From contig JACQII010000009.1 in assembly GCA_016198585.1 (NCBI GenBank), forward strand, positions 1-50,721: DNA of 50,721 bases. Direction: 5' to 3'. Below, in pieces: positions 16,889 through 38,092 of the stretch. This stretch comes from Candidatus Aenigmatarchaeota archaeon. Lineage in GTDB: Archaea > Aenigmatarchaeota > Aenigmatarchaeia > QMZP01. Within the stretch, counting starts at the first letter, position 1. Every line of letters begins with the position of its first letter. The position numbers and the translations under genes were made by a program. The notes beneath the pieces were generated by a model. That model was not told the origin of the DNA. It searched no databases and worked only from the letters and a program-made list of their open reading frames with translations.

Positions 16889-16891
16889 AAA

Positions 16892-17158: not shown

Positions 17159-17177
17159 ATCCCTGCTTGGCGCGTGT

Positions 17178-18861: not shown

Positions 18862-18945
18862 GACTGGTCTTTCCGGGAAGCTTTAAATGAGTTCGCGCCG
18901 GAGCGGCTGGGAGAACCATTATAAAGCGGGCAGGAAAGAATGGAG

Positions 18946-22183: not shown

Positions 22184-23482
22184 ATGACCGTGAAAGACCA
22201 GAAGACGTATTCCCGTGACGTCACCCCGGGGACCGACGTCCGGGTGGCGGGCTGGGTCGCCAAGATCCGCGACCTGGGAAACATCAAGTTCTTCCTGCTC
22301 CGCGACCGCGAAGGCATGGTCCAGGTGACGGCGAAGAAGGGCGCAGATGCCATGCTGGACGCCATCCTCGCCCTCGGCCGGGAGGACTACGTCACCGTCT
22401 CCGGGAAGGCTGTCGCCTCCCGCCAGGCGCCGCGCGGCGTCGAGATCGTCCCGTCGGCCATCGAGGTGGTCGCGAAAGCCGCGTCACCGCTGCCCATCGA
22501 CTTCGGCGACAAGATTGAGACCAACCTGGACAAGCGGCTGGACTGGCGCGTCCTCGACCTGCGGAACCCGCGCAACCTCGCCATCTTCAAGGTCCAGGAC
22601 CGCCTGATCGAGGGGATGCAGGCTGCCCTCCGGGAGCGGGGGTTCATGCAGGTCTTCACTCCCGCGCTGATGGGCGTCGCCTCCGAGTCAGGGGCAGACG
22701 TCTTCCCGGTCTTCTACTACAACCGCGAGGTCTACCTCCGGCAGGATCCGCAGCTCCACCGGCAGCTCCTCATCGCAGCGGGCTTCGACCGGCTTTACGA
22801 CCTCGGCCCGTCCTGGCGAGCTGAACCGTCGCACACGAGCCGGCATCTCTGCGAACACCGTGGCCTTGCGCCTGAGATGACGCTCACCGACGAGACCGAC
22901 ACCATGCGCCTGGAGGAGGCCGTGGTCATCGCCGCCCTGCAGAACGTCCAGGCCCACTGCGGCCCTGAACTGGAGACGCTCGGCGTGACCGTGGAGGTCC
23001 CTGAAGCGCCGTTCCCTGTCCTCACCTTCCCGAAGGTCTACGACATCCTCGAAAGCCTCGGGAAGACCGTCGCCCACGGCGAGGATGTCGATCGGGAGGG
23101 CGAGAAGCTGCTGGGCGACTGGGTGAAGAAGAAACACAAGAGCGACTTCTTCTTCATGAACAAGTTCCCCTTCAAGAAGAAACCGTTCTACGTCATGCGG
23201 GACGGGGAGTGGGCCCGCAGCGTCGACCTGATCTACCGGGGACTTGAACTCTCCTCAGGCGGTCAGCGGGAGCACCGCCACGACCGCATCATGCAGCAGA
23301 TCAAGGAGAAGAAGATGGACCCGAAGACCCTGGAGTGGTTCACGGAGCCGTTCCGCTACGGCGTCCCGCCGCACGGCGGCTTCTGCATCGGCATCGAGCG
23401 GCTCACCATGCAAGTCCTGGGGATCGAGAACGTCCGCGAGGCCGCTCTCTTCCCCCGCACGCCGGACCGGTGCCTGCCATGA
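22184..23482 (+). CDS. aspS: Aspartyl-tRNA synthetase (archaeal type)
   Basis: Charges tRNA-Asp and, if non-discriminating, tRNA-Asn. The 432 residues match archaeal AspRS. The N-terminal OB anticodon-binding domain (15-105) begins VRVAGWVAKIRDLGNIKFFLLRD. The class II catalytic domain has motif 1 around LIEGMQAALRERGFMQVFTP, motif 2 SWRAEPSHTSRH, and motif 3 GFCIGIERLTM. The open frame extends upstream to 21878, but ATG 22184 gives the family N terminus. The stop overlaps the next ATG (ATGA at 23479), so a surface-protein gene is co-transcribed. Discrimination cannot be settled from the window. Confidence 0.95.
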   Translation: MTVKDQKTYSRDVTPGTDVRVAGWVAKIRDLGNIKFFLLRDREGMVQVTAKKGADAMLDAILALGREDYVTVSGKAVASRQAPRGVEIVPSAIEVVAKAASPLPIDFGDKIETNLDKRLDWRVLDLRNPRNLAIFKVQDRLIEGMQAALRERGFMQVFTPALMGVASESGADVFPVFYYNREVYLRQDPQLHRQLLIAAGFDRLYDLGPSWRAEPSHTSRHLCEHRGLAPEMTLTDETDTMRLEEAVVIAALQNVQAHCGPELETLGVTVEVPEAPFPVLTFPKVYDILESLGKTVAHGEDVDREGEKLLGDWVKKKHKSDFFFMNKFPFKKKPFYVMRDGEWARSVDLIYRGLELSSGGQREHRHDRIMQQIKEKKMDPKTLEWFTEPFRYGVPPHGGFCIGIERLTMQVLGIENVREAALFPRTPDRCLP

Positions 23483-23856
23483 AAGCGCAGATGTTCATCC
23501 TGACCCTGGTGTTCCTCGCAGGCCTGGTGTTCGTCGTCCAGGCAAGCCTCGCCCAGTACGGGGCAGTCTCCCTCGAGGAGCCGTTCGACCGCCAGGAAGC
23601 CAGCCTGATCGCCGGCGTCGTCCAGGCATTCAACGAGACGCTCTGGTCGTCGCCCACCTGCTCGACCGCCGAGCAGAACGTCGCTTCCCTCGAAACGTTC
23701 GTCGAGGAGAAACTCATCCAAGGGGTCTCGCTCACCGTCGAGACCGGCATGGACTGCGCGTCCTGGGGAACCGGCGGCCCGGTCCTGAACCTGACGGTCC
23801 GGCTGAAATCCGCCACTGTCGACATCGTGGAGCAGGCTTCCCTCCCCGGATCGTGA
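23479..23856 (+). CDS. Small membrane-anchored surface protein, pilin-like
   Basis: A 125-residue protein. Residues 5-24 form one hydrophobic segment (FILTLVFLAGLVFVVQASLA), and the rest is a short ectodomain with two cysteines (CSTAEQN, DCASW) that may form a disulfide. It starts within the aspS stop codon. The N terminus resembles the first gene of pilin-like clusters in DPANN genomes, but no strict class III cleavage site is visible. It is probably displayed on the outer face of the membrane. Function is unknown. Confidence 0.7.
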   Translation: MKAQMFILTLVFLAGLVFVVQASLAQYGAVSLEEPFDRQEASLIAGVVQAFNETLWSSPTCSTAEQNVASLETFVEEKLIQGVSLTVETGMDCASWGTGGPVLNLTVRLKSATVDIVEQASLPGS

Positions 23857-23900
23857 GGTCATGGCAAGGAAACGCGAAGATCGGCGATTGGCTGTTCCGG

Positions 23901-23910
23901 CTTTATATAG
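23901..23910 (+). promoter_or_regulatory. TATA box of the first pilin-like transcription unit
   Basis: CTTTATATAG is centred 26 bp before ATG 23932 and separates this unit from aspS and its follower. Confidence 0.6.
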
Positions 23911-23931
23911 GGTCTCAGCATACTATAATAC

Positions 23932-24561
23932 ATGAGGCGGAAAGGGGACTTCCAGATGAGCCTGGGGTTCATCATTGCCGTAGTCTTCTCGATCGTCCTG
24001 CTCAGCCTGGCCCTGACCTGGCTCAGCGGCCTCATCGGCGGCGTCGTCGGCCTGACTGATGATCTCACCCAGGAAGCCCAGTCCACCCTCCGCGACGCCT
24101 TCCGTGGCGGCACGGCCTCGAGCTTCGCGGTCTGGCCCTCCCAGTACAAGCTTGATGCCGGCAAGAGCCTGAAAATGTCCGCGGGCATCGAGAACGACGC
24201 CATCGACGGGAAGGACCACAAGTTCGTCATCAACGTCCGCCCGGCCATCGCCGACCAGAATGTCCTGCTGGCGAAGTGCGGCGGCGGGGAGACCCTCTGC
24301 CCGGTTCTGGAGGCCGACCTCAAGAAGTGGGTCACCTTTGACTTCGGGGTCGGCACCATCGCCATCAATGAGGTGGGTTTCAAGTTCATCGAGATCCGGC
24401 CGCCCGGCGACGCGGTCAAGGGGACGTACATCTTCAACGTCGTGGCCTGCTACGACGAACTCGGTTCCGGCACGCTCACCTCAGCATCGTGCACGGAAAC
24501 CAGCACGAACCTCTGGGGAGGCAGCGCCCAGCAGGTCATCATCAGCGTCGGCCTGCAGTAG
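23932..24561 (+). CDS. Pilin-like bitopic surface protein
   Basis: A 209-residue protein. A short basic N terminus (MRRKGDFQMSLG) is followed by a hydrophobic helix (about 12-35, FIIAVVFSIVLLSLALTWL), the layout of archaeal pilins. The ectodomain is mostly beta, with cysteines in AKCGGGETLCP, VACYDE and ASCTE. The leaderless start is supported by the TATA box at 23901-23910. The next gene begins three bases after the stop. A prepilin-peptidase substrate is plausible, but a canonical Q-x-S-x-E box is not seen. Confidence 0.72.
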   Translation: MRRKGDFQMSLGFIIAVVFSIVLLSLALTWLSGLIGGVVGLTDDLTQEAQSTLRDAFRGGTASSFAVWPSQYKLDAGKSLKMSAGIENDAIDGKDHKFVINVRPAIADQNVLLAKCGGGETLCPVLEADLKKWVTFDFGVGTIAINEVGFKFIEIRPPGDAVKGTYIFNVVACYDELGSGTLTSASCTETSTNLWGGSAQQVIISVGLQ

Positions 24562-24564
24562 CTT

Positions 24565-25041
24565 ATGAACCGCCCGGTGACAGGGACCGTCGTCGTCCTG
24601 GTGGCGGTCGTGGTGATCTTCCTCTGGCTCAAGGCCCAGGCGCCTGCCGCGGTGACGCATGCGGCCTCGCCGGCCGGTCTGGTAGAGTTCCTCGCCTCGT
24701 CCAGCAACCGCATCGCTATCCGGTCCCCTCCCGACCTTTCCTGGACGACGGGGGAGACGGGCACGTTCCTCCTGGCCGTCAAGAATACCGGCCCCCAAAA
24801 CCAGACCTACGCCATTTCCGTTTCGTTGGAGCAGCTGGACGGGCAGCCGGCTGACCCGGCCACAGCCGCGAGTTGGATCACGCACGACCCCCACCTGATC
24901 GTGGGCGCGGGAAGCGTCGGTCTGGTCACCCTGACGTTTGCGCCGGCTGTTCCCGGAGTGTACCTCTTCCGCACGACAGTCTGCGCCCTGCCCTGCAGCG
25001 TGACCTACGCGACGGCGACATTCTCCTTCTCCAGCGCGTAA
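24565..25041 (+). CDS. Anchored Ig-like beta-sandwich protein
   Basis: A 158-residue protein with an N-terminal membrane segment (about 6-25, TGTVVVLVAVVVIFLWLK), then a single beta-sandwich domain (WTTGETGTFLLAVKNTGPQNQTYAISV, later LVTLTFAPAVPGVYLF). The pattern resembles NEW3/CARDB-type extracellular domains found in archaeal surface proteins. One cysteine pair lies near the C terminus (CALPC). It lies three bases after the preceding pilin-like gene. The stop codon falls in a run of TAAGCG repeats. Confidence 0.7.
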   Translation: MNRPVTGTVVVLVAVVVIFLWLKAQAPAAVTHAASPAGLVEFLASSSNRIAIRSPPDLSWTTGETGTFLLAVKNTGPQNQTYAISVSLEQLDGQPADPATAASWITHDPHLIVGAGSVGLVTLTFAPAVPGVYLFRTTVCALPCSVTYATATFSFSSA

Positions 25042-25064
25042 GCGCCTAAGCGATTAAGCGCTTG
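25039..25064. repeat. TAAGCG octamer-spaced repeat
   Basis: TAAGCG occurs at 25039, 25047 and 25055, each 8 bp apart, and ends in CGCTT. It is related to the GCTTAA repeats at 27.7, 28.0 and 28.3 kb (reverse complement TTAAGC). It covers the stop codon of the preceding gene. Confidence 0.6.
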
Positions 25065-25137
25065 CCGTCGGGCCTGTCTCCCCTGCGAAGCCGCAGTCCG
25101 GGTGCAGCGTTTTAAGCCCGGCCCAGTAATAGAGTGT

Positions 25138-25638
25138 ATGGACACCGGCCTGGTCTTCGCCATCATCTTCACCATCATCGTGGTCGGGGTCGTCGTGGCC
25201 CTCGGCATGGGGCAGATCCAGTCCTTCTTCTGCGTCGGGAGCAACGCACAGACAAACAAGGCCGTTGCGGACATTGAGGACATCGTGGACGAGGTCTTCG
25301 TGTTGGCTAAGGGATCGGCGAAGACCTACCGCCTCGCGCTCCCCAGCGACGGCAAGGTCTGCTTCGTCAACAGCACCTCTCCCGGCGTCCAGCCCTACAC
25401 CGACACGACCCAGACCTGGAACCCTGACCCGCTCATCCTGGAGCACGTCTTCCAGAACCCCGCCTCTCCCGGTTATGGGTCGAACGTGTGGATCCACTAC
25501 TGTGACCGGCCGCTCGGGGAGGGCTACCAGATGAAGTTTTTGGCCCCGTCAAAAAGCTTTTGCGCCGTGTCCGGCCGGACGGTGACGATCGAGAACAAGG
25601 GCAAGACCGTGGATATAAGGCCGGTCTCGCAACAATAG
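25138..25638 (+). CDS. Pilin-like bitopic surface protein
   Basis: A 166-residue protein. Residues 4-25 are hydrophobic (GLVFAIIFTIIVVGVVVALGMG). Then follow a helix (NKAVADIEDIVDEVFVLAKGSA) and a beta domain with YRLALPSDGKVCFVN and two further cysteines (YCDRP, SFCAV). The start at 25138 rather than 25102 follows from TATA-like GTTTTAAGC (25109-25117), centred about 26 bp upstream. It is the first gene of a four-gene operon to 27741. Function is unknown. Confidence 0.74.
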   Translation: MDTGLVFAIIFTIIVVGVVVALGMGQIQSFFCVGSNAQTNKAVADIEDIVDEVFVLAKGSAKTYRLALPSDGKVCFVNSTSPGVQPYTDTTQTWNPDPLILEHVFQNPASPGYGSNVWIHYCDRPLGEGYQMKFLAPSKSFCAVSGRTVTIENKGKTVDIRPVSQQ

Positions 25639-25641
25639 ACC

Positions 25642-26736
25642 ATGCTGTCGGTCTACGAAGCCTTCAAGCTCGTCCTCGGCATCGTCATATCCCTCGTCAT
25701 CCTGACTGTCGTCATCTACTTCACTACCAATTACATTGGGGTCCAGAAAGACGCGAAGCAAGCGGCCACACTCAAGGCGTTCCTCAAGTCGGCTGGCGAC
25801 GTCTACACGACCGGCGACGCGATCGGTTTCGCGGGGTTGGAAGGCCTCATTTCCTTCGATGCCCACCCCCCGGCGGGCATCGTCTCCTCGTTGGGAAAAG
25901 CGCCGGTGACGTTCCCGCTCCTCCTCTTGCCCGCGGACGACCTGTTCATCTCCGCGAACGGCCTGGACCTTGGCTGGTACGATTTCCGGGTTGTTGAGGC
26001 CACGCCGCGCCTTCGCGTGCTCTTCAACCCGGTAGACACGTCAGACCAGACCTGGGACCTCGTCCGCGGGATCGTCGCTGCCTTCCCGTCGACCGAATTC
26101 TTCGATCCGAAGACCACCTTTGGCTTCTGCGACGGCGCGACGGTGATCGAGAACCTCTGCGCCAGCACGGCCTGCGAACAGGATGACTTCCTCTTCGAGC
26201 TGATCAATCCCTCGGGGGTGGCGTTCGCCGACTGCACGGCCACTGTTCCCGAGGGTGCGGTGGTCATCAAGGTCATCCCTACATGCAGCCTGGGGTCGAG
26301 TGACGTCTTCTGCCTGACGCCCCCGAACCAGGTCGGGCTCGGGAACCTCTACATCGGCGGCGAGGGACCGGTCATCTACAAGGACCCGCTCGACGTCGTG
26401 GCCGCCGTCATTGGGGGCGGGAAGAAAGACCTGTACGGGAATTCAGGGGAGACGCTCTTCGAGTACAAGAACCGCGCCATGCGGACTGAGCTGTTGGCCG
26501 CGACCGATGTCCTGAAAACGCGCGTGCTGCTGCTCGGTCCTGCATATCTCCAGCATGCCACCTGCCAGGCCGCTTTCAATGACATTCTCCTGGCCCTGTC
26601 CAACCTTTCCTCGCTCCTCGAAACCAATGAGGACTATTATGCGGACCCGTCGGCCGCGGCTGCCTACGTCGCCGCGCTCACCGACGCGCGCCAGGCCCAT
26701 GAATCGCTCGTGGAAGAGGGGTGTGATTACGCATGA
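25642..26736 (+). CDS. Anchored surface protein with Cys-rich ectodomain
   Basis: A 364-residue protein with an N-terminal helix (residues 8-30, FKLVLGIVISLVILTVVIYFT). A large ectodomain follows. It contains several cysteine pairs (GFCDGA, ENLCASTAC, FADCTA, PTCSLGSSDVFC) and ends in a helical segment (about 285-360, with residues ALTDARQAHESLVEEGC). It starts four bases after the previous stop, and its stop overlaps the next start (ATGA). Order and overlap indicate co-production of the operon proteins in fixed ratio. No family is recognised. Confidence 0.74.
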   Translation: MLSVYEAFKLVLGIVISLVILTVVIYFTTNYIGVQKDAKQAATLKAFLKSAGDVYTTGDAIGFAGLEGLISFDAHPPAGIVSSLGKAPVTFPLLLLPADDLFISANGLDLGWYDFRVVEATPRLRVLFNPVDTSDQTWDLVRGIVAAFPSTEFFDPKTTFGFCDGATVIENLCASTACEQDDFLFELINPSGVAFADCTATVPEGAVVIKVIPTCSLGSSDVFCLTPPNQVGLGNLYIGGEGPVIYKDPLDVVAAVIGGGKKDLYGNSGETLFEYKNRAMRTELLAATDVLKTRVLLLGPAYLQHATCQAAFNDILLALSNLSSLLETNEDYYADPSAAAAYVAALTDARQAHESLVEEGCDYA

Positions 26737-27233
26737 AGGGACAGCTTGGCCTGATGGAGTACATCTTCACGGCGTTTTTCCTGATCATCATCGTGATCGC
26801 CTTGCTCTTCTTCCTGACGGGTTTCCAGATCACCCAGTCCGTCGGGGAGAAGAATCAGGGTTCAATCGATCGGGCGCTGTTGCTGCTTAAGCAGGTCTCC
26901 TCCTCGCCGCTTTTCGTGAAAGAGCAGGGGGTTCTCGATGACGCGAAGCTGACGGCGTGGCTCGCGTCCGATACCTGCGACCAGTTGGAGGAGCTATTCG
27001 GTCCGGACTGGTTCCTGGAAGTCACGGTCCTGGACGGGACGGGCGTGGTCGTCCCGTGCTCCCAGGCAACCTATCCGCAATGCAATCACTGGTCGCTCTG
27101 CACCCAAGAGGCGAACGCGCTAGCCTTCGACCTGCCAGTTAACGTGTATCGCAACGTGAACACCATATTGACCAAGGATGTCATCCCCGCGACCGATCTC
27201 GGCATCCTGAAGGTGGGGGTCTATGTCGAATAA
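26733..27233 (+). CDS. Pilin-like protein with class III-like N terminus
   Basis: A 166-residue protein beginning MKGQLGLMEYIF followed by a hydrophobic helix to residue 30. G-Q after a lysine, with Glu a few residues on, resembles the archaeal class III signal cleaved by the prepilin peptidase, with one residue of extra spacing to Glu. The ectodomain has cysteines in SDTCDQL, VVPCSQ, YPQCNHWSLC. It overlaps the preceding stop (ATGA) and the next start by 11 bases, so translation is coupled. This is the best pilin candidate of the cluster. Confidence 0.76.
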   Translation: MKGQLGLMEYIFTAFFLIIIVIALLFFLTGFQITQSVGEKNQGSIDRALLLLKQVSSSPLFVKEQGVLDDAKLTAWLASDTCDQLEELFGPDWFLEVTVLDGTGVVVPCSQATYPQCNHWSLCTQEANALAFDLPVNVYRNVNTILTKDVIPATDLGILKVGVYVE

Positions 27234-27741
27234 TCGTAATGGACAGGCCACATTGATCATGCTGGTCCTGATCATTGTCATCTTCGTGGGGATGGTCACC
27301 TTCCTGCTCTCGCTTGCGGAGAGCGTTTCGCAGTCAGAATATCTCAACCTGTACGCCCACGGCCTCCTCGCATCCCTGCTGAGAACTGATACGGGGAGCC
27401 TCGATGCGAACTGCAAGACCGTGGGGAACCTGTTGTCCTGTTCATTTCTCTCGCCAGCTTACCTATGCGGCGGCCAGACCTGCGGTTCGCTCGCAGAGGC
27501 GACAGTAAACGATTCCCTGTCGCAGTTTGCCGACATCAAGGAGGGCTTCCGCTATCTGTTGATCGTGGAAAGCGAGGGGTTCAGTGCCGTCGGTCCGGCC
27601 GGCGTCGAACGGCTCGAGATGGGAGACCCCTCACTCTTAGACGCCCCGGAACGGATCGCGGCCACCCAGCACCTCTCCGGAGTCTTCGGTGGCCAAGCGT
27701 ATGTGCTCAACGCCCGCCTCCTCGTCTCGAGGATCGACTAG
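27223..27741 (+). CDS. Pilin-like bitopic surface protein
   Basis: A 172-residue protein with N-terminal MSNNRNGQATLIMLVLIIVIF: basic residues, then G-Q, then a long hydrophobic helix, the class III-like layout shared with the previous gene. Ectodomain cysteines are in DANCKTV, LLSCSF and LCGGQTCGS. It is the last gene of the operon and starts inside the preceding coding region. The stop is followed directly by the GCTTAA repeat cluster. Confidence 0.74.
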   Translation: MSNNRNGQATLIMLVLIIVIFVGMVTFLLSLAESVSQSEYLNLYAHGLLASLLRTDTGSLDANCKTVGNLLSCSFLSPAYLCGGQTCGSLAEATVNDSLSQFADIKEGFRYLLIVESEGFSAVGPAGVERLEMGDPSLLDAPERIAATQHLSGVFGGQAYVLNARLLVSRID

Positions 27742-27742
27742 C

Positions 27743-27791
27743 TGCTTAACCACTGCTTAACTGCTTAATCTATCTGCTTAATAGTGCTTAA
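27743..27791. repeat. GCTTAA repeat cluster 1
   Basis: GCTTAA starts at 27744, 27755, 27763, 27776 and 27786 (spacings 11, 8, 13, 10). The first 28 bases match 28015-28042 with one mismatch. It begins directly after the stop at 27741. Confidence 0.75.
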
Positions 27792-28032
27792 TCGCTCGCA
27801 GGAGACACACCCCAGAGCAAAGCGCTTGAACAGCCAAGAGATCAACCGGGCATCTCTTCTGGACCGTAAAGGCTCATTGTGTGCAGGATGCCGGCAGGTT
27901 CCGTGGAAGAAATCAGATAGAGTAGGCCTGTTCGTTGCGTGTTCCTTGGAGGATGCATACAATCCTCCCTGCGATGGTAGGTCGGTCATACCCATGCCGG
28001 CGTATGTGCTGAAGTGCTTAACAACTGCTTAA
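27784..28032 (+). CDS. Uncertain small ORF between the two repeat clusters
   Basis: An 82-codon frame between the repeats, basic at the N terminus, with a CAGC motif and three further cysteines. Base composition is less GC-rich than the neighbours. A 76-codon frame also exists on the other strand, so coding is doubtful. It may be a remnant of inserted DNA. No promoter-like sequence is evident, and the start falls within the repeat. Confidence 0.25.
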   Translation: MLNRSQETHPRAKRLNSQEINRASLLDRKGSLCAGCRQVPWKKSDRVGLFVACSLEDAYNPPCDGRSVIPMPAYVLKCLTTA

Positions 28033-28042
28033 CTGCTTAATC
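28015..28042. repeat. GCTTAA repeat cluster 2
   Basis: GCTTAA at 28016, 28027 and 28035 (spacings 11 and 8) is a near-exact 28-bp copy of 27743-27770, 272 bp away. It runs into the end of the winged-helix gene (stop at 28037). Confidence 0.75.
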
Positions 28043-28630
28043 ACTTAGCTTCGTGATCGCGAATTCCTTCAAGGTCTTCTCGCTAATCCTCACTTTCGTC
28101 TGTCGGCCGGCGTTCATCTTCTCAAGGGGGATTTTATAGACGTTCACCAGGTCCGCCACGTACCCCCGAATGCAAGAACCGCTTACGGGCGGTGCGCACA
28201 GGGAGCCGATCCCCTCATAAGTCAGCCAGTCTCGCTGCTCGGCAAGGGCTTGGAGCACCTTCAAATGCCGAGGAGTGAGCATCTCGATCTTCTGCTTCGT
28301 CTCGAGGACGACCTCATCGAGACTCTTTGCTGCTTGAGAAGCGCTTAAGCGCTTGCGATCTGACTGCTTAACTGCTTGACTGCTGCTTAACCCCAGGGAG
28401 ATCGCCTCGCGCAGGGGCGCCGTCACGTGCTCTGCCAGCATGCGCGGCAGGAGGTCCTTGTCCGCCATGCGGTTGAGAATCATCTCCCGCGAGCGCGTGA
28501 CTTCAGCAACAATCTTCGAGACGTCGTCCTTGGTGCTGAGCGTCCGCAGGATATCTTTGATGTCGCTCGTGTCGCGCTGTCGCGACGGTCGGCGTTTCCG
28601 CGGCTTCTCGCGGCGGAAAAGTTTGAACAT
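28037..28630 (-). CDS. Winged-helix DNA-binding protein of the surface-protein cluster
   Basis: A 197-residue protein with a very basic N terminus (FRREKPRKRRPSRQR). A helical central part (30-100) follows, then a C-terminal winged helix (about 118-195) with MLTPRHLKVLQALAEQ, LTYEGIGSLC and SGSCIRGYVADLVN, and a basic wing (GRQTKVRISEKTL). ATG 28630 is chosen over 28861 because the TATA element at 28650-28660 lies 25 bp away. It is divergent from the 600-residue pilin-like gene and shares that element. A repeat-rich stretch of its coding sequence (28331-28392) contains GCTTAA-type hexamers. It is a candidate regulator of the cluster (inference). Confidence 0.75.
   Translation of the reverse strand: MFKLFRREKPRKRRPSRQRDTSDIKDILRTLSTKDDVSKIVAEVTRSREMILNRMADKDLLPRMLAEHVTAPLREAISLGLSSSQAVKQSDRKRLSASQAAKSLDEVVLETKQKIEMLTPRHLKVLQALAEQRDWLTYEGIGSLCAPPVSGSCIRGYVADLVNVYKIPLEKMNAGRQTKVRISEKTLKEFAITKLSD
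28331..28391. repeat. GCTTAA/GCTTGA repeat cluster 3, inside a coding region
   Basis: GCTTGA or GCTTAA hexamers occur near 28333, 28343, 28367, 28375 and 28386, with one GCTTGC near 28351. The part with AAGCGCTTAAGCGCTT is palindromic. In the minus-strand gene it encodes the Ser/Ala/Gln-rich link SSSQAVKQSDRKRLSASQAA. Confidence 0.6.
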
Positions 28631-28649
28631 GATGAGTATTGTCGTCCGG

Positions 28650-28660
28650 TTATTTATAAG
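28650..28660. promoter_or_regulatory. Single TATA element for two divergent leaderless genes
   Basis: TTATTTATAAG is centred 25 bp from ATG 28630 (minus) and 28 bp from ATG 28683 (plus). The element is near-palindromic, and there is no second candidate at the right distance for either gene. Confidence 0.65.
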
Positions 28661-28682
28661 CCACGCTGGACAAATAAAGGAT

Positions 28683-30485
28683 ATGCGGACCGGACAGGTA
28701 GAGATCATCGTGGTTCTCGCCATCGTCATCGTAGCTATCATCGCAATCCTGCTGGCGACCGTGCGACCTCCGGCATCGCCGCCGCTCTCCCAGGAAGGCC
28801 AGGCGGCGCGCGCCTCCCTGAGCCACCTCATCACCACCGGGGCGGATGAAGCCCTGCGCACGCTCTCGCTCTATGGCGGCTATGCGTCGCCGACGGGAAC
28901 CGTTGTCTTCCTCGGCGACCTCGTCCCCTATTGGCAAAAGGAAGGAGACGTCGTGATCCCGCCGGTTGAGCAACAGTTCATCTCCTTCACCGAGACATTC
29001 ATCAACGAGAACAAGGAGGCGTTCATTGCCGACGCGAGCGGCCTGGAGGTCGGCGAGGCGAACGTCGTGGCCACCATCCTCCCGAGCAAGATCGACCTCA
29101 CGGTCAGCCTCCCTGCGACTCTCAATGGAGATCCGCTCCCCGCAACCTATGAAGTCTCCATTCCCACCAAGTTCGGCAACATCGTCGAATTCGCCGAGGC
29201 GTTCTCCTACGATGAGATCGATCACCGCTACCTCGAGATGAACACCGTCGCCACCCTCTTCACGTCGCCGATCGAGAGTGGCGAACACGTGACGCCGTTC
29301 TTCGTCGCCTTGACGGACTGCGGCGCATTCTACTTCAAGACCTGGTCTGACCTCAAGCCTGCAGTCGAAGAGCGTGTCCAGGTTGCCCTAGCCCACACGT
29401 ATATGCCCGGCAAGGTCCCGCTCAACGTAGGAGCGGTCACCTCCTATCCGAAGTACTCCCTGCCCAAGCTGAACGGCAAGGACTACGCCGACGTGGAGGT
29501 CAGCTTCCACCTGCCTGACGACTTCGTTCTGACTCCCAACAGCCTGCGCATCGAACCGAACCCGATCGTTGCCACGGCAAAGCCCGTGCCGCTCACCGCG
29601 ATCTGTGTTTCCGACCCGATTTATGTGACTTACTCTCTCCGTTTCCCGGTCATCGTCCGGGCGGAAGACACGCTGACGGGTAACATCTTCCAGTTCGTCC
29701 ACCAGGTCTCAATCGAGGACAACCAGCCTGCGCCATGGTCCACCGTCGAGCAGGGCATTCAGGAGCAGGTCTGCACCAACCAGCTCTGCCAGGCCGACAT
29801 TCAGGCCACCAGCGCCAGCGGCCAAGCCGTGACCGGAGCCGACGTCTTCTTCATGGGCTGCTCCATTGGCCAGACCGGAGCGACAGGCCAGTTGGCAGGA
29901 CCGATCCCCTGCGGCATCGGCAACCTCGAAGTTTACAAGACCGGGTATGCCGTGACCTCGACGGGCACGACCTCGGATGAGCTCGCGGCGGCCGTGCAAG
30001 TCACCGTTCCGAAGATGCTCGCGGCGACCGTCTACGTCTACCAGGTCAACGTCCAGGAGTTCGGCGGGAAGTACACCATCGACGCCATCACGCCGCTCCC
30101 CGCAGGCCGCAAGCTCATGCTCACCATGGACACCCTGAGCGGCGACAGCTACACCATGGTCTTCGGGCCGGTCGGGACACTGAACAGCGTGCCGGCAGGC
30201 GATTTCGGAATCATCGGCAACCTCGTGGATGACACACTTCAGCAGGCGTTCGGCCAGATCGATCTGGTCCACCTGTTCCCCGAGGACACCCCCGAACTCC
30301 ATATCTACGTGCCCAACAATTACCAGTTCTCGCAACTGAACCAGGTCACCGACGGCAGCGCGATCGCGGCAAAGGGCCTGGAGTTGACGAATCTCCTCCA
30401 GCAGTGTGGCCTGCCGCCGATCTCGGCGGCGCCGGCCGATCCCGCGACCATCCTCGGGTGCAGCAAGGGGGTCAATGACGTATGA
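28683..30485 (+). CDS. Large pilin-like surface protein (600 residues)
   Basis: Starts MRTGQVEIIVVLAIVIVAII: a basic residue, G-Q, Glu and then a hydrophobic helix to about residue 25, the class III-like layout. The 570-residue ectodomain is mainly beta. The first half has a region LVPYWQKEGDVVIPPVEQQF, and a second domain (about 360-450) has cysteines (QVCTNQLCQ, FMGCSIG, IPCGIGNL) and a carboxypeptidase-regulatory-like pattern (SGQAVTGADVFFMG then GIGNLEVYKTGY). The start is set by the TATA element at 28650-28660. Its stop overlaps the next start (ATGA at 30482), coupling it to the 1470-residue protein. Confidence 0.8.
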   Translation: MRTGQVEIIVVLAIVIVAIIAILLATVRPPASPPLSQEGQAARASLSHLITTGADEALRTLSLYGGYASPTGTVVFLGDLVPYWQKEGDVVIPPVEQQFISFTETFINENKEAFIADASGLEVGEANVVATILPSKIDLTVSLPATLNGDPLPATYEVSIPTKFGNIVEFAEAFSYDEIDHRYLEMNTVATLFTSPIESGEHVTPFFVALTDCGAFYFKTWSDLKPAVEERVQVALAHTYMPGKVPLNVGAVTSYPKYSLPKLNGKDYADVEVSFHLPDDFVLTPNSLRIEPNPIVATAKPVPLTAICVSDPIYVTYSLRFPVIVRAEDTLTGNIFQFVHQVSIEDNQPAPWSTVEQGIQEQVCTNQLCQADIQATSASGQAVTGADVFFMGCSIGQTGATGQLAGPIPCGIGNLEVYKTGYAVTSTGTTSDELAAAVQVTVPKMLAATVYVYQVNVQEFGGKYTIDAITPLPAGRKLMLTMDTLSGDSYTMVFGPVGTLNSVPAGDFGIIGNLVDDTLQQAFGQIDLVHLFPEDTPELHIYVPNNYQFSQLNQVTDGSAIAAKGLELTNLLQQCGLPPISAAPADPATILGCSKGVNDV

Positions 30486-33400
30486 TCCTGAAACTGGTCG
30501 CCGGGGTGATGGCCTACCTGATCGTGATGCTGCCGGTCTCCTTCGCCACGAACGTCAACATCATCTCAGGGGGGGCGGTCAAGGCCACGACCTCGATTTC
30601 GCCATCCATGGTCGTCAACGAGAAGATCAGTATCGTCCATGAAGCCTCGGACATCACCTGGTCCAAGGTCAAAGTCCTCGTGACGGTGAACTCGGCCAGC
30701 CTTGCCCACTCGATCGAACGCATCCTTGTTTTCAAGTGCAAGCTCCTCGATCCGGCCTCGTGCGCCACGAACGTTGCGCCGATCGATTTCGAGACGTTCG
30801 CCAACACCGAGTTGCTCTGGAGTGACATCTCCCAGAAGGAGGGCCCGAGCACCTACCCCCAGACCGCCCAGCTCATGACCCTGGTCAAGGTGCGCGACAA
30901 TGATGGCCAGGAGAGCTGGGTGGGCATGTGGCACACGGTGGACCGGGCTAACTACAATATCTTTACCCAGTCAAATTTTGAGCTCGACTCCATCGACTTC
31001 CACGTGAAAACAATCGACCTCGTTGACCCGACCAAGAACTTCATCGACAACTTCGCCATGATCCCCTTCAACTGGGCGGAGAAGGTGGTCTTCACCTCGG
31101 CCTCCTCGCTCTTCGCGGCCGGCGGCGACACCGGGGAGATCGATATCCCGCAACTGACCTCTGCCAGCCCGGCAGGCAACCAGATCACCAGCATCAACAA
31201 AGACTTCTTCCTCGTCTTCCCGGTCTCGACCAGCGGCCAGACCAGCGCCATCACCCTGAACCAGAACCCTTCTTTCACCGCCGGTGACGGCATCTGTGAG
31301 GCGAACCTGGGTGAATCCCCAACAAATTCCTGCGTGGACTGCGGCTGCGCGACCGGCCAGTATTGCGACATCCAGAACCCCCCGGTCTGCAAGGCCACGA
31401 GCGGCATCTCCGTCAGCGTCCTCCCTCCGGCCCTGCCGACAGTGACGGACTGCTCGAAGCCGATCCCGATCACCCTGAACGTGCAAGTCCAGAACCCGCC
31501 CGCGACCCTCACCTCGACCTTGACCGGCATCCTCTCCCTGGAAGGGACGCCCCAGGCCGTGGCCTGCTCGGGCGACGGGATCTTCTACACCTGCCCGCTC
31601 CAGGTCCAGCCCGCGGTCAGCTGCGGCGCCACCAGCTTCTCGATCGGACCCAACACCCTCAACCTCTCCCTGGCATTCGAGGACGGTCTGAACACCGCGA
31701 TCCTGCCGGTCTCGGCCACGTTCAGTGATATCCCCGTCAACCTCGCCTGCGGCTGCCCGAGCGGCTTCTTCTGTGAGGCAGGGGAATCTGTCTGCAGCGC
31801 GCTCGGCTCGGTCACCGTCAGCGTCCTGAACGTGACCTCGTTCTTCTCCAACTTCAATCCGGCGGGAGACACGGTCACGCTAACCGCCAAGATCAACAAC
31901 CCAGCAGCTGACTTGGCCGTGACCGGCGTGCAGTACACCCTCGGCACGCTTTTCAAGGACTCTTCACCGGTTTTGAACGCCACGAGCGGCAGCGTCACCT
32001 GCGCCGGTAGTCCTCTAGATCACGTCTATACCTGCTCGATCCCCTTCTCCATCTCCAACTACAACACGGCCTCCGCCTACTTCTTCAAGGGGAACAGCAT
32101 CACCTTCTCGACCGCGTTCTCCGACGCCGGCTCGACCATCACGAAAGACCTCACTTCAGGGTTCGCAGACATCACGATCCCGTCGTTCACCTGCGGTGAC
32201 GGGGTCTGCAACACAGAAGAGACGCAGGCGACATGCTGCACGGACTGCGGCTGCCCCCAGGCCGGGATGTACTGCGACGTCGGCGCCCTGAGCTGCGGAA
32301 CCCTCGACCAGATCGATCTCGCGGTCCTGACCGTCGATCCGGTCGCGGTCACGGACTGCACGCCATCCCAGCCGCACACGATCAGCCTCACCACCCAGGT
32401 GGCCAATCCCCCGACCGACCTGAAGATCGACTTCGTCAGCTACCTCAAGAACAACCAGGTCCAGGCCTTCCCCATCTCCTGTGCGCCCATCAACCCTGGC
32501 GCAAACACTGGACTGTTCTCCTGCGCGCTCGTCCTCCCCTCGGGAATCGAAGGCTGCCAGGACCAGCCCTCGGGCTTCGTGCTCGGCCCGAACAAGCTGA
32601 ACATGACGGTCTCCTTCGCGGACGGGAAGCAGGGCATCGTCACCAAGACCTTGTCCGCAGGATTCAGCGACATCACGATCACCCCCACCTTCACCCAGGG
32701 CGACGGCCTCTGCGAGACCCCCCTGAACGAGACTGGTGCGAACTCCTGCGTGGACTGCGGCTGCGACGAGTTCGGCAGCAGCTTCTTCTGCAACGTCCAG
32801 CTTGACAGCAGCAGCTGCCAGGACAAGGACGACATCCAGCTGGTGATCGATTCGCCGACCGCGCCAGTCCACTTCGACTCGTGCGAGGTCTCCCAGAACG
32901 TTGAGATCAAGGCCCGGATCGTCAACCAACCGACCAACGTGGAGAACATGGTCTTCTCTGCCACGCTCAACGGGACCAACGCCGAACAGTTCTTCTGCGT
33001 GCAGTCGGGCCAGGTGTTCGGGGAGAACCTGACCGCGCCTTTCGAGTGCAGCCTGGGCATCGCGGCCTCGCAGACCTGCTCGAAGGGCAACATTGCCACG
33101 TACGCGAACAACGACATCACCGTGACCCTCGCGTTCCAGTCTGGCCTCGCGGCCACGGAGATCCACAGCGTCACGGCCCCGTTGCCGGACATCGTCATCA
33201 CCCAGCAGATCGTCTCGATATTCGACATCACCCAAGAAGCCATCGCCAAGATGCAGGCCGAGTTGGACAAGACCAAGCAGATCGTGGACGCCATGCTCTC
33301 CCAACTGGAGAATTGCCTCGATGTCGCCCTCTTCCTGGCCATGATGGCAGTCGTGGCGATCATTGCGGGCGGGATCATCGGCGCTAGTGAGGGAGGGAGC

Positions 33401-34894
33401 ACCTGGGCAGAAGGCGTGCAGGCAGGCGCCTCGGCGGGAACGAGCCTGCTGACCGCGTGGTCGACCTACTGCGAGATGCTCAACCTCTACTACAACGCCC
33501 AGATCACCGCCCAGGAGATCCGCCTGAAGTTCGTCCAATCAGAATTTTGCATGGACCTCGTCCAGCACCAGATGGACAGCGGCCAGTGCAAGAACCAGGA
33601 GCTCTCCTGCTTCGACCAGATGACCTCCTGCCTGAACTTCGCCGACATCCACGACGCGATGGATAACCTCGGCAACTTCCTCAGTCAGATCACCTCAAAG
33701 TCCCAGGAGTTCGGGTCAGCCGTCGAGGACTTCGGCGAAGGCCTGGGCGAGTTCGGTGACCTCTTCGAGGACGGCTCGTCCACGGGCGCCTCGCTTAGCA
33801 TACAGCAGAACAACATACCCGGCATCGACCCCTATTGCAACTTCCGCGCGACGAAGAACAAGGTCACCACCTCCTTCGGGACCAAGTGCGCCAACGCCGG
33901 CCCCAACGACGTGGACACCATCACCGCAACAGTATTTAACAAGGAGAACTGGTGCCAGTTCCCCGTGGTGCAGATCAAGACAGGGACCGGAGAGCTTGCC
34001 GCAAACTGCGACGACGGCGAAGACACGTGCAGCACCCTGATCGAGGGCGTCCAGGAGAGCCTCGGGCAGACCTGGACGGCCGCGCTCTACTGCTTCAAGG
34101 ACAGCGGCTCCTACAGCGCGTCAAAGCTCTCTTCCAAGACTCCCACGATCATCCCCTTCACCGTCTACGCCGACACCGACAATGATTGCAGCTGCGAGAT
34201 TGGCGGTGAAGGAGATGGCAGCGCGGTATCGCCTCCTGATGGAGGAGCGGATGAGGGTTCGGTGAGCCTGAAGGCGGATGACAAGGACCAGATAACGATT
34301 GCGTCCGGGACCACGGTGACCTTGGTGGCAAAGGTGGAGAACTTCAACGTCCCCGGCTTCGTCTCCGTCCTCAAGTACCTCTTTGACTTCGGCGATGGCA
34401 CGCCCGTCGACGTGGAATCGCAGTCGGTCAACACGCTCATGTCCTCGGTCAGCCACCAGTACACGGTCACCGGCACCCACACCGCCACGGTCAACGTCCT
34501 GACTCCGGACGACCAGGTGATTGGCCAGGACGACGTCATCATTACCGTGACCGGAAGCGGCACCCCCCCGGCTGGAGGAGGGACCGGCGGAGGCAGCTCA
34601 CCTCCCGGGAACCAAGCGCCGGTGATCACGATCCTCAAGCCGACATCTGGGGAAGCGGTGTCCGGCATCTATGCGATAGAAGGGTCTATCGTGGATCCTG
34701 ATGGAGACCCGGTGACCGCTCAGATCATCATCCTTGGCTCTGATGATAATTATGGCGACCTGACGGAAGGCGACTTCTCCATTCCCTGGGACACCACACT
34801 CCTCCCGGATGGCAGCGTCACTATAGGGATCACGGCAGATGACAGTCACAACCCAGCCGTCACCCAGTTTGTGGTCGTGACTGTAAATAACTAA
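30482..34894 (+). CDS. 1470-residue surface protein with Cys-rich repeats, internal membrane segment and PKD domain
   Basis: An N-terminal signal sequence (residues 3-22) precedes a beta domain to about 260. Cys-rich units follow at about 268, 423, 570 and 739. Three carry GDGxC and DCGC (such as GDGICEANLGES, SCVDCGC), and the one at 423 has CGCPSGFFC only. Most are followed by a roughly 120-residue beta-sandwich with recurring ADVxNPPT/QVQNPPA and IGPNxLNxS motifs. A helix (about 915-950) leads into a Gly/Ala-rich hydrophobic segment (949-975), then a Cys-containing helical region to about 1100. The C terminus has a PKD domain (about 1260-1360, LFDFGDGTPVD), a Gly/Pro linker and a last Ig-like domain (1378-1470). 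Translation is coupled to the previous gene. It may be the main structural or adhesive subunit of the cluster (inference). Confidence 0.8.
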   Translation: MILKLVAGVMAYLIVMLPVSFATNVNIISGGAVKATTSISPSMVVNEKISIVHEASDITWSKVKVLVTVNSASLAHSIERILVFKCKLLDPASCATNVAPIDFETFANTELLWSDISQKEGPSTYPQTAQLMTLVKVRDNDGQESWVGMWHTVDRANYNIFTQSNFELDSIDFHVKTIDLVDPTKNFIDNFAMIPFNWAEKVVFTSASSLFAAGGDTGEIDIPQLTSASPAGNQITSINKDFFLVFPVSTSGQTSAITLNQNPSFTAGDGICEANLGESPTNSCVDCGCATGQYCDIQNPPVCKATSGISVSVLPPALPTVTDCSKPIPITLNVQVQNPPATLTSTLTGILSLEGTPQAVACSGDGIFYTCPLQVQPAVSCGATSFSIGPNTLNLSLAFEDGLNTAILPVSATFSDIPVNLACGCPSGFFCEAGESVCSALGSVTVSVLNVTSFFSNFNPAGDTVTLTAKINNPAADLAVTGVQYTLGTLFKDSSPVLNATSGSVTCAGSPLDHVYTCSIPFSISNYNTASAYFFKGNSITFSTAFSDAGSTITKDLTSGFADITIPSFTCGDGVCNTEETQATCCTDCGCPQAGMYCDVGALSCGTLDQIDLAVLTVDPVAVTDCTPSQPHTISLTTQVANPPTDLKIDFVSYLKNNQVQAFPISCAPINPGANTGLFSCALVLPSGIEGCQDQPSGFVLGPNKLNMTVSFADGKQGIVTKTLSAGFSDITITPTFTQGDGLCETPLNETGANSCVDCGCDEFGSSFFCNVQLDSSSCQDKDDIQLVIDSPTAPVHFDSCEVSQNVEIKARIVNQPTNVENMVFSATLNGTNAEQFFCVQSGQVFGENLTAPFECSLGIAASQTCSKGNIATYANNDITVTLAFQSGLAATEIHSVTAPLPDIVITQQIVSIFDITQEAIAKMQAELDKTKQIVDAMLSQLENCLDVALFLAMMAVVAIIAGGIIGASEGGSTWAEGVQAGASAGTSLLTAWSTYCEMLNLYYNAQITAQEIRLKFVQSEFCMDLVQHQMDSGQCKNQELSCFDQMTSCLNFADIHDAMDNLGNFLSQITSKSQEFGSAVEDFGEGLGEFGDLFEDGSSTGASLSIQQNNIPGIDPYCNFRATKNKVTTSFGTKCANAGPNDVDTITATVFNKENWCQFPVVQIKTGTGELAANCDDGEDTCSTLIEGVQESLGQTWTAALYCFKDSGSYSASKLSSKTPTIIPFTVYADTDNDCSCEIGGEGDGSAVSPPDGGADEGSVSLKADDKDQITIASGTTVTLVAKVENFNVPGFVSVLKYLFDFGDGTPVDVESQSVNTLMSSVSHQYTVTGTHTATVNVLTPDDQVIGQDDVIITVTGSGTPPAGGGTGGGSSPPGNQAPVITILKPTSGEAVSGIYAIEGSIVDPDGDPVTAQIIILGSDDNYGDLTEGDFSIPWDTTLLPDGSVTIGITADDSHNPAVTQFVVVTVNN

Positions 34895-34974: not shown

Positions 34975-36318
34975 ATGAGGTTCCTGCCGACCATCATCGC
35001 CCTCCTGTTGCTCCCCTCGGTCCAGGCCCTGCAGATTGCCGACGGCCTCTTCTTCACGCTGCCACCGGAGTCGATCGCGTGCGTCGAGATGACATTGCCT
35101 GACGATGCGGGCATCTTCCTCGCGGGGGCCGCATCCTACAACATCACGTCGGACGCCGTGTGGGGCGACCTGACCCAGCAGTTGGTCACGACCGACGAGA
35201 ACAACACCGTCACGGTCCCGATCTGCTTCTCCTCCTTCGGCGTGGCAGCAGGGGAATGCGCGCCGCCGCACACGATCACGATCCATGCGCCCCAAGCGTC
35301 TAAGAGCTTCTCCGGAGGCGTCTGCGTGAGCCTTTTCGGGGACGTCGACATCTCCCCTGAAGGCGGCGAGCCTGGGGACGTCCTGAACAGCGAGGCTGAC
35401 CTATTCGACATCGGCTTCGCCACGACGACCCTCTACGTGCAGGCAGGACAACCGGCCCAGCTGACCCTGCTTGCGGAAAGCTATGCCAACCTCACCTTGG
35501 AGGTCACCGCCCAAGGCCTGACCCCCGGATTCCAGACCGTCGCGCTCTCGGCCGACCAGCCCTTCGCGTCGCTGAACTTCACCGCCAGCGCTCCCGGGGC
35601 GAAGCTGGTCACTGCCAACGTCGCGGGATGCGCGGCCAGCCTCTGCAGCAAGACGGCGACCGCCGAGGTTATTGCGACTGACGCAGACCCGGTCGGGTTC
35701 ACGGCGACCCTCTTCCCTCTCAGCATCAATGTCAAAGACCCTGGTCCGGTCCAGTACGAGCTCACGATCGAGAACTTCGGCGATCCCCAGGATTTCACCA
35801 TCTCCCTCGTCCTGGAAGACGGTCTGACCTCGGGTTTCCAGTCCCAGGTCGTGACGGTCGCAGGCCAGGAGGCCGTCAGTTTCGAAGTCACCCCCCTTGA
35901 GCCGACCGCATTCTACGAGGTCGTGGTCCTCGTCACTCCCGAGACCGGGAGCGTGAAGAAGAAGGTGGCCTATCTCTCGACTGACGAATTCGTCACCGAC
36001 GCCGAGAACGCGGCTTCCCCTGAACTCCAAAATAAGGTGGATGCCTGGTACGCAACCTATGCGACGACCCCCTACGGCGACGACCTGGAAGAGTACGTGA
36101 GCCTGCAGGATGCGCTTGCAGCCGCAGTCCAGGACGTTCCCCAGGAGACCCCTGCACCCGGGCCGCTTCCACCCCCGCCTCCCGTGGACCAGGGGCAGCC
36201 GTTCCCCATCGGACTGATTGCAGGCGCGGGAGTGGCAGCCGTAGTGGTCGTGCTGGCCGTCCTGGTAATGCGGCGGAGGAAGCCCGCACAGATCGAGTCC
36301 CCTGAACTGGAAAGGTAG
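34975..36318 (+). CDS. Secreted protein with C-terminal membrane anchor
   Basis: A 447-residue protein. A signal peptide (1-18, LPTIIALLLLPSVQA) is followed by a beta-rich ectodomain with two or three Ig/CARDB-like domains (TTLYVQAGQPAQLTLLAESYANLTLEV, later GPVQYELTIENFGDPQDFTISLV). A helical stretch, a Pro-rich linker (PLPPPPPVDQGQP), a C-terminal transmembrane helix (410-432) and a cytoplasmic RRRK tail complete it. Topology is therefore outside with a tail anchor. It is convergent with a gene of the same layout at 36344, suggesting related roles at the envelope. No enzyme motif is seen. Confidence 0.78.
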   Translation: MRFLPTIIALLLLPSVQALQIADGLFFTLPPESIACVEMTLPDDAGIFLAGAASYNITSDAVWGDLTQQLVTTDENNTVTVPICFSSFGVAAGECAPPHTITIHAPQASKSFSGGVCVSLFGDVDISPEGGEPGDVLNSEADLFDIGFATTTLYVQAGQPAQLTLLAESYANLTLEVTAQGLTPGFQTVALSADQPFASLNFTASAPGAKLVTANVAGCAASLCSKTATAEVIATDADPVGFTATLFPLSINVKDPGPVQYELTIENFGDPQDFTISLVLEDGLTSGFQSQVVTVAGQEAVSFEVTPLEPTAFYEVVVLVTPETGSVKKKVAYLSTDEFVTDAENAASPELQNKVDAWYATYATTPYGDDLEEYVSLQDALAAAVQDVPQETPAPGPLPPPPPVDQGQPFPIGLIAGAGVAAVVVVLAVLVMRRRKPAQIESPELER

Positions 36319-36343: not shown

Positions 36344-38092
36344 TCAGGACTCGAACTCTTCCTTCAGGTCGTCGTCGAGGCCCTCGTCCTCATCATCCTT
36401 CGGAGCTGTTTTCTTGCGCCGGCGGAGGAAGAAGAGCAGGACGACCGCGACGACAATGACGACGACAATGAGCGGGATCGCGAAGGCGAGGCCGGACCCG
36501 TCTGCGGAAGGTGGCGTGCCTGGAGGGGCGGGCGCAGCGGCCACAACACCGAGGACCGTGATGCTGGCTTTCGCCTCGTTTAGCGACTGTTCAGCCTCGG
36601 CGTAGTCGCCGGTGGTGAAGCTGGATTGGGCGTCGTCGAGGAGAGAACTGACGTCGTCGATGGTCCCCGCGAGCTGGGTGAGTTGCTCGATCGAGAGGCT
36701 GTTCTCGAAGTCTTCGAGGTCCTGCTTGGCTGCGTCGATGTCCCCGGTCACGTCCGCGAAGAACCGCGCATTGACGAGGATCGTCGCCGACCCGCCAGCG
36801 CCAGCCACGGTAACCGTCCCCTCATACGTCCCTGCGGCAGCTGGATCAAGCTCAACCACCAGGCTCCCTGCACCCTTCGACGGCAGGGAAGGCGGGGGCG
36901 TGATCTGGGCGATGCCCGCGATCGTTCCCGAAGTCGAGATGTTGAACCCGCTCGCGGCGCTGTTGCCGTTGTTGCTGAGAGTGAACGTCTTGGAGACCGG
37001 CCCGACCGAGAATTCGCCCGCCCAGGTGCTCGGCGCGACGGCGAGGGACCCTTCACCGCTACAGGTGAGGGCTCCGGTGACGGTCACGGCCGCGAGGACC
37101 GGGATCTCGCCGACGGCGGTCCCGTTGGAAAGCAGGGTGACGATCGTGTTGATGGTCAGGGACTGGTCAATGTTCTTGAGCGTGACCGTGAATGACGTGG
37201 TGTCGTTGGCGTCGAGGGAGGTGGCCTGGAGGGCGACCTCAAGCATGTTCGCGAGGGCCGCGGGGACCGAGGCGGTGATGTTGTTCACCGGTGCGCTGCC
37301 CCCATTCGAGATGAAGTAGCCGGTCTTGGAGAACGGCTTGCCTTTCTCCACGAGGACGCCCGGGATGTTTACCTGGTCGGCGAGGAGGGGGTAGTCGCTC
37401 TCGCTCACGGAACAGACGCCTGCTCCAGTCGCGTCTTGCGGGACCGAGACGCTGACGACGGTCCCGCCGAAATTGCTGGCCGAGGTCGCGGAGAAGACCA
37501 GGTAGTACTCACCGCCCGGGAGCGTCACGTTCCCGATCCACTTGTCGCCGACCACGTCATAGGTGAGCGGCTTGTAGTCCGCCTGGAAGGAGAAGTTCTT
37601 CAGCAGGACGGCGTAGGTGACGCCGGTCGGGAAGTTCCCGGGCGTGGTGATGCTCATGTAGATCGTGCCGTTGACGGGGATCTCCATGTTGGGCTTGGTG
37701 ATCAGGGTCATGCTCCCGACCGGAACTTCAGCGGTCTTGTTGGCTGTCGCGCCCGATGCATCGACCGCGTTCACCAGCATCGTGGCAGGATCGAAGCCGA
37801 CCGTCGCGACCTGGAACGGTGTCGGCCCGCAGAGCGCGGCAGGATCGGCGTTGGAGAAATAGCAGACAAAGAGGTCGCCGACCTTGGAGAACGACCCGAA
37901 GTCCGCTTCTCCGAAGCCGGGAACGGTCCAGGTGACCCGCGTCGGCACGGTAGTCTGGCCCTTGGCGATAACGATGAACGGCGAGGATGCGGAGATCTGC
38001 GCGGGGATGAACGTGAGATCGGGGGTGGTGACTGCCAGGGACGGGGGCGCGAGCAGCAGCAGCGAAAACAGAGCTGCCAGGAGGATCCTCAT
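36344..38092 (-). CDS. Secreted protein with C-terminal membrane anchor
   Basis: A 582-residue protein. The signal peptide (1-20, ILLAALFSLLLLAPPSLA) precedes several beta-sandwich domains with COG1470/CARDB-like patterns (VNNITASVPAALANMLEVALQATSLDANDTTSF, then SKTFTLSNNGNSAASGF). A predicted helical hairpin (about 455-515, AAKQDLEDFENSLSIEQ), a linker, a transmembrane helix (about 535-560) and an acidic cytoplasmic tail (RRRKKTAPKDDEDE) follow. The start at 38092 fits the TATA element at 38109-38120. Its layout matches the facing gene at 34975. Confidence 0.8.
   Translation of the reverse strand: MRILLAALFSLLLLAPPSLAVTTPDLTFIPAQISASSPFIVIAKGQTTVPTRVTWTVPGFGEADFGSFSKVGDLFVCYFSNADPAALCGPTPFQVATVGFDPATMLVNAVDASGATANKTAEVPVGSMTLITKPNMEIPVNGTIYMSITTPGNFPTGVTYAVLLKNFSFQADYKPLTYDVVGDKWIGNVTLPGGEYYLVFSATSASNFGGTVVSVSVPQDATGAGVCSVSESDYPLLADQVNIPGVLVEKGKPFSKTGYFISNGGSAPVNNITASVPAALANMLEVALQATSLDANDTTSFTVTLKNIDQSLTINTIVTLLSNGTAVGEIPVLAAVTVTGALTCSGEGSLAVAPSTWAGEFSVGPVSKTFTLSNNGNSAASGFNISTSGTIAGIAQITPPPSLPSKGAGSLVVELDPAAAGTYEGTVTVAGAGGSATILVNARFFADVTGDIDAAKQDLEDFENSLSIEQLTQLAGTIDDVSSLLDDAQSSFTTGDYAEAEQSLNEAKASITVLGVVAAAPAPPGTPPSADGSGLAFAIPLIVVVIVVAVVLLFFLRRRKKTAPKDDEDEGLDDDLKEEFES

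Follow-up and report, generated by a model that had tools for sequence, protein, structure and literature searches.

A candidate filament-tip module with a giant cysteine-rich protein, conserved in one order of Aenigmatarchaeota

In this study, a cluster of nine genes (p1 to p9) was analysed on a 50,721-nucleotide contig of a Candidatus Aenigmatarchaeota archaeon (JACQII010000009.1 of assembly GCA_016198585.1; contig C2 of genome G000), the whole of which is referred to as the window. The host genome is a metagenome-assembled genome (MAG) of 0.94 Mb and 76% completeness, and the archaeon is tiny and probably partner-dependent. With guarded confidence, we favour the reading of the cluster as an orphan module for the minor pilins and tip of a type IV filament, which would present the giant adhesin-like protein p9.

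Gene content of the cluster

All nine genes lie on the forward strand. The first one, p1 (23479-23856; 125 amino acids (aa)), encodes a protein with a KAQ-type class-III-like leader. A five-gene core follows, comprising: (i) p2 (23932-24561; 209 aa), with a leader of the KG-A-F-Q type (here RKGDFQ), (ii) p4 (25138-25638; 166 aa) and (iii) p5 (25642-26736; 364 aa, 8 cysteines), both with a signal-anchor start (M-N/D-x-G in p4) and without the class-III motif, (iv) p6 (26733-27233; 166 aa), with a class-III-like KGQ...MEY start, and (v) p7 (27223-27741; 172 aa, 4 cysteines), with a start of the NGQ/K[GA]Q type. Inserted between p2 and p4 is p3 (24565-25041; 158 aa), a paralogue of p2. Two larger genes stand downstream, p8 (28683-30485; 600 aa, TGQ/KGQ start) and p9 (30482-34894; 1470 aa). 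Overlaps of 4 bp join aspS to p1, p5 to p6 and p8 to p9, and one of 11 bp joins p6 to p7. Each of p1 to p8 has a single N-terminal hydrophobic helix, which is the only transmembrane (TM) helix of p1, p2 and p8, and p3 has a second, weaker hydrophobic segment (111-129). The cysteine content is 2-8 in each of p1 to p8 and 54 in p9, which has a signal-peptide-like start and one internal hydrophobic segment (948-966). An earlier note, made from the sequence of the window, had listed seven single-helix proteins of small or medium size, two larger ones of 600 and 1470 aa, and the same overlaps, and this gene list proved correct. It had also pointed to a basic-GQ-type start in three proteins; these are p6, p7 and p8, and variants of it are present in p1 and p2.

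Searches with Pfam and NCBIfam models for p1-p9 and for a winged-helix-like protein encoded nearby, and with PHROGs for a subset, yielded no useful family besides the PKD domain of p9. A match of p3 to the immunoglobulin (Ig)-like Cep192_D1 was weak and under the cut-off, and comparison of p5-p9 with sequence profiles of the PDB gave nothing credible.

The model of p8 (predicted local distance difference test (pLDDT) score of 84.2) shows a TM helix followed by a break; the rest comprises an alpha/beta domain and several beta domains, Ig-like and transthyretin/CarboxypepD_reg-like. At low TM-score, Foldseek matched the model to surface proteins, among them an ancillary pilin of a streptococcus. 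A small NTE domain gave a good local match (TMt 0.78), with carboxypeptidase transthyretin-like domains close behind; CarboxypepD_reg was recognized by Pfam in two p8 homologues. These matches point to surface beta domains and to no specific family.

In p9, which is built of cysteine-rich repeats, only the PKD domain near the C-terminus passed the Pfam cut-off, while Big_7 remained below it. A candidate match to the type IV secretion system protein TrwL was rejected (score of 14.4 vs a cut-off of 100). Conservation of p9, calculated per 70-residue block, is mostly 25-45% local identity through residue 1050 and 5-17% past it, and the C-terminal part varies among genomes. Such a combination of constant base and variable outer end is in line with an adhesin, but relaxed constraint would give the same pattern.

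Conservation of the module in differing neighbourhoods

Profile searches were performed over 156 genomes of the class and phylum, and gene maps were read for 33 loci/genomes representing five families (f1-f5) of one order. This analysis revealed that the core p2-p4-p5-p6-p7 (or the portion of it present on the contig) is constant in order and strand in 32 of the 33 genomes, across all five families, the sole exception being G002, with p2 on the opposite strand. The p6 profile matched 36 of the 41 genomes of the order, usually with one copy each, including all 10 with a completeness of at least 90%; outside the order its matches were weak and covered mainly the N-terminal portion. In another genome (L069:5682-6320; G006:C32) p2 is interrupted and spans two open frames, owing to a mutation or to an error in sequencing.

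The flanks of the core differ: f1 has aspS and PCNA, f4 has genes for a predicted nuclease and for an enzyme resembling those of tRNA modification, and f5 has other genes. Since the neighbourhoods are different in different families, the core is a unit that travels together. Among the loci read, p1 was confined to f1, and p3 occurs in some f1 genomes only. The ectodomains of p3 and p2 matched in profile-profile comparison with a probability of 100% (E 2.5e-46), a figure that is overstated because the hits used for the two profiles overlapped. The first ectodomain stretch of p5 resembles that of p4.

Of the genomes searched, 42 were matched by the p8 profile, and 40 of these belong to the order of the window. 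In f1 and f5 the p8-p9(-p10) block comes after the core; in f2, f3 and f4 it is apart from it, as far as the contigs reach. Many genomes carry a second p8-p9 pair, located in some f1 genomes beside ribosomal protein genes. In the p8 tree, the core-linked copies of f1 and f5 fall into separate groups, with at least two label changes forced by well-supported branches; therefore, either p8 was linked to the core on two separate occasions or one ancestral linkage was lost in the other families.

Leader motifs, the pilin link and neighbouring elements

A basic residue and Gly or Ala ahead of the hydrophobic helix were found in p1, p2, p6, p7 and p8. Among homologues whose starts were read directly, the class-III-prepilin-like [KR][GA]Q start was present in 11/11 (p1), 25/32 (p2), 24/32 (p6), 28/32 (p7) and 35/39 (p8) proteins, and in none of the 40 p4, 47 p5 and 34 p9 homologues; the background among other proteins with an N-terminal TM helix encoded in the same loci was 3/64. 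On called genes the share was lower for some families (7/15 for p2 and 8/13 for p6; zero for p4, p5, p9 and p10), probably because of start choice.

The genome encodes the machinery that such precursors would need, all of it off the window's contig. Two complete type IV pilus (T4P) loci are present, on contigs C10 (L025) and C13 (L027), each combining two T2SSF platform proteins with a T2SSE ATPase whose C-terminus is PilB3-like, and a prepilin peptidase of the A24 type is encoded on C6 (G000:C6:9880-10695); the PF06847 peptidase gave no match in the searched genome. A third type II/IV secretion ATPase (L026:8828-11222, on C10) adjoins a KaiC-like ATPase and has no neighbouring platform gene.

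A link between the cluster and these loci is provided by p6. Its profile matched that of pilin Q, a minor pilin encoded beside the C10 T4P ATPase, over the full length (hhalign probability of 95%, E 3.7e-8), and the ectodomains alone gave 67.5% (E 5e-5), these E-values being those of single pairwise comparisons and not of a database search; the remaining cluster families reached at most 9.4% against Q at full length. The p6 hidden Markov model independently matched Q orthologues in G028 (1e-6) and G036 (0.0017). Thus, by its sequence profile, p6 is a distant homologue of pilin Q; the difference is that p6 has its own conserved set of cysteines and sits in the orphan core. Q is itself DUF7287-like (18.9 bits, below the Pfam cut-off of 27), and a stand-alone DUF7287 pilin-like gene, above the cut-off and with an hhalign probability of 92.6% to Q, is located elsewhere in the genome (L168:8169-8654; G000:C5:78190-78645). 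Compared as single sequences with the remaining pilins of the two T4P loci (C10 and C13), p1-p8 gave no convincing match. In its AlphaFold2 model (pLDDT of 84.7), p6 has one long helix (residues 2-57) followed by a strand-built head, and the modelled layout of secondary structure is pilin-like.

Two genes beyond p9 encode proteins with a signal-peptide-like start and a C-terminal TM helix: p10 (34975-36318, forward strand; 447 aa), of a surface layer (S-layer)-like layout and often 3' of p9, and p11 (36344-38092, reverse strand; 582 aa), found near the cluster in several relatives. A winged-helix-like gene (28037-28630, reverse strand; 197 aa) lies between p7 and p8, outside the conserved module. 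It had been taken for a dedicated gene of the cluster; the gene is real and not dedicated, as it holds this position only here and in G001 and G004 and is found elsewhere in G016 and G011, and on this distribution its role as regulator of the cluster was rejected. Its protein matched no family model and the winged-helix label rests on sequence appearance. The heptamer TGCTTAA occurs 12 times in the window (0.83 expected), in arrays at 26883-28390, beside and inside this gene, and 10 of the 13 CTGCTTAA sites of the whole genome fall at 26.9-28.4 kb. In four relatives the homologous genes carry GCTTAA/GCTTAAGC arrays inside or just beside them, with the pilin cluster nearby or not. The repeats accompany the homologues even away from pilin genes, which would fit self-binding or autoregulation better than control of the cluster.

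Elsewhere in the window are the archaeal signal recognition particle RNA (16889-17161, reverse strand; Rfam RF01857, 147 bits), two adjoining genes for secreted/membrane-anchored proteins (18940-20225, forward strand), a pair kept in G016 (L015:333-1658), and an open frame of ~2100 codons (44428-50721, forward strand) that continues past the contig end.

A proposed filament tip and its alternatives

The proposal of an orphan tip module is based on the core order kept in unrelated neighbourhoods, the near-universal presence of p6, the enrichment of the leader motif, the homology of p6 to Q, the p6 model and the machinery encoded elsewhere; the surface-like beta domains of p8, the conserved base and variable distal end of p9, and the recurrence and duplication of p8-p9 pairs add to it. 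In the proposed mechanism, p1, p2, p6, p7 and p8 would be made as prepilin-like precursors and trimmed by the A24 peptidase. Packing of the N-terminal helices may then bundle the trimmed subunits, p4 and p5 being putative uncleaved membrane partners, and the bundle would prime and cap a filament that one of the two T4P machines of the TadA/TadC type extends. The large modular p8 would hold the secreted p9, which may project outward on a conserved, cysteine-stapled stalk, its fast-changing distal end attaching to a partner cell or to a surface. In this scheme, the cleavage, the formation of a complex, the position at the tip, the binding of a ligand and the choice of machine are all inferred.

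The earlier note had likewise proposed a pilus-like or envelope-spanning assembly, with p9 as putative scaffold or tip, that could use machinery encoded elsewhere. A conserved pilus-like assembly of this kind, dependent on distant machinery, is now well supported by gene order, the p6-Q homology, the p6 model and the off-contig location of ATPases, TadC-type platform proteins and peptidase. Its observation that the window lacks assembly machinery agrees with searches for the T2SSE ATPase and the A24 peptidase, which matched nothing on this contig, and the peptidase and TadA/FlaI-type ATPase for which it advised looking elsewhere in the genome are found on C6 and on C10 and C13, respectively. 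Homologues scattered without a conserved order, and structure predictions showing unrelated domains that lack a common packing of the N-terminal helices, were named there as outcomes that would speak against such an assembly; neither was observed, gene order being conserved in nearly all genomes and the p6 model pilin-like in layout.

Several observations weigh against a filament tip. The sequence tie to a T4P pilin was found for p6 only, p1, p2, p7 and p8 being without significant profile similarity to the tested T4P-locus pilins. Foldseek of the p6 model against the PDB returned no pilin and no match with E <= 0.001, so its pilin fold is without independent confirmation. The leader motif is absent from all counted homologues of p4 and p5, and the five families that carry it lack Glu at +5 (counted from the Gln of the motif, it is at +6 in p6 and at +3 in p8). 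The Pfam scan of p9 detected neither a PilY1-type C-terminal domain nor DUF2341, and the p8 model has a break after the TM helix. Moreover, the gene maps of the window and its relatives contain no complete T4P operon (ATPase and platform in the locus), nor any ATPase, platform or peptidase gene in the loci read, and the host MAG is incomplete.

Some of these points are shared by a serious rival, which we nevertheless consider unlikely: a static, ATPase-free surface complex that never polymerises, in which the N-terminal helices are plain anchors and p8-p9, together with p10/p11 of S-layer-like layout, build a fixed spike or a structure for host contact. The lack of machinery beside the module in every genome read, the non-prepilin anchors p4 and p5, the frequently adjoining p10/p11 and the break in p8 would all be expected of it, but a prepilin-like motif strongly enriched in five families and the homology of p6 to a T4P-locus pilin would not. 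More doubtful is a distinct type of apparatus for cell contact, derived from pilins, present almost universally in a single order and working without an extension ATPase, in which p2/p4/p5/p6/p7 would form a fixed or self-assembling spike with interchangeable cysteine-rich p8-p9 heads for host attachment. A short type II-secretion-like pseudopilus pushing p9 or other proteins across the envelope is improbable: five pilin-like families with large secreted proteins do resemble minor pseudopilin sets, and a T4P/T2S-type ATPase is encoded elsewhere in the genome, but neither PDB sequence searches nor Foldseek matched a pseudopilin, p9 carries its own signal-peptide-like start and a dedicated ATPase is missing. 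Least probable of all, and already disfavoured, is a set of unrelated surface proteins kept together by inherited synteny alone; the restriction of p1 to one family and the separation of p8-p9 from the core in f2-f4 agree with it, whereas the core is intact in different neighbourhoods of five families and copies of p8 that adjoin p7 occur at two separate places in the p8 tree.

The claim of an undescribed assembly holds for the protein families in the libraries searched and not for the arrangement, as bacteria are already known to have clusters in which minor pilins and a large tip adhesin are encoded apart from the motor. In the parts of the open-access literature on Aenigmatarchaeota/DPANN pili that were available, no account of such a module was found. 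Nine gene families that the searched libraries do not recognise, the PKD domain aside, are thereby named. All cultivated DPANN archaea are reported to require direct host-cell contact (PMC11291902), and few of their attachment proteins are known. An order-wide pilin-like module with duplicated giant heads whose outer ends change fast offers a concrete, testable candidate for the structure by which Aenigmatarchaeota would make that contact.

By analogy, the module would work most like the tip complex of a type IV filament. In bacterial minor-pilin tip complexes, several pilin-like proteins prime the filament and present a large protein (PMC10191384). The cluster resembles these complexes (PilHIJK or FimU-PilVWXE with PilC/PilY1) in that a pilin-like set is encoded with one very large secreted protein, and differs from them in lacking any match, by sequence or by domain, to PilY1 or bacterial minor pilins, in having far more cysteines and in being archaeal. 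The kilLMN genes of the Myxococcus Kil/Tad system form tip clusters that exist as several paralogous copies and include a large modular pilin, on a filament of the Tad type (PMC12075869), and p8-p9 pairs are also duplicated; however, no sequence relation is shown and the giant p9 is secreted, not pilin-like. Finally, Clade 1 archaeal T4P loci comprise DUF2341 adhesins, at least five minor pilins, an ATPase and two TadC genes (PMC4858521), with which the cluster shares several proteins with class III signals, large adhesins predicted at the tip and S-layer-like proteins, whereas here the ATPase and TadC are encoded elsewhere and DUF2341 is absent.

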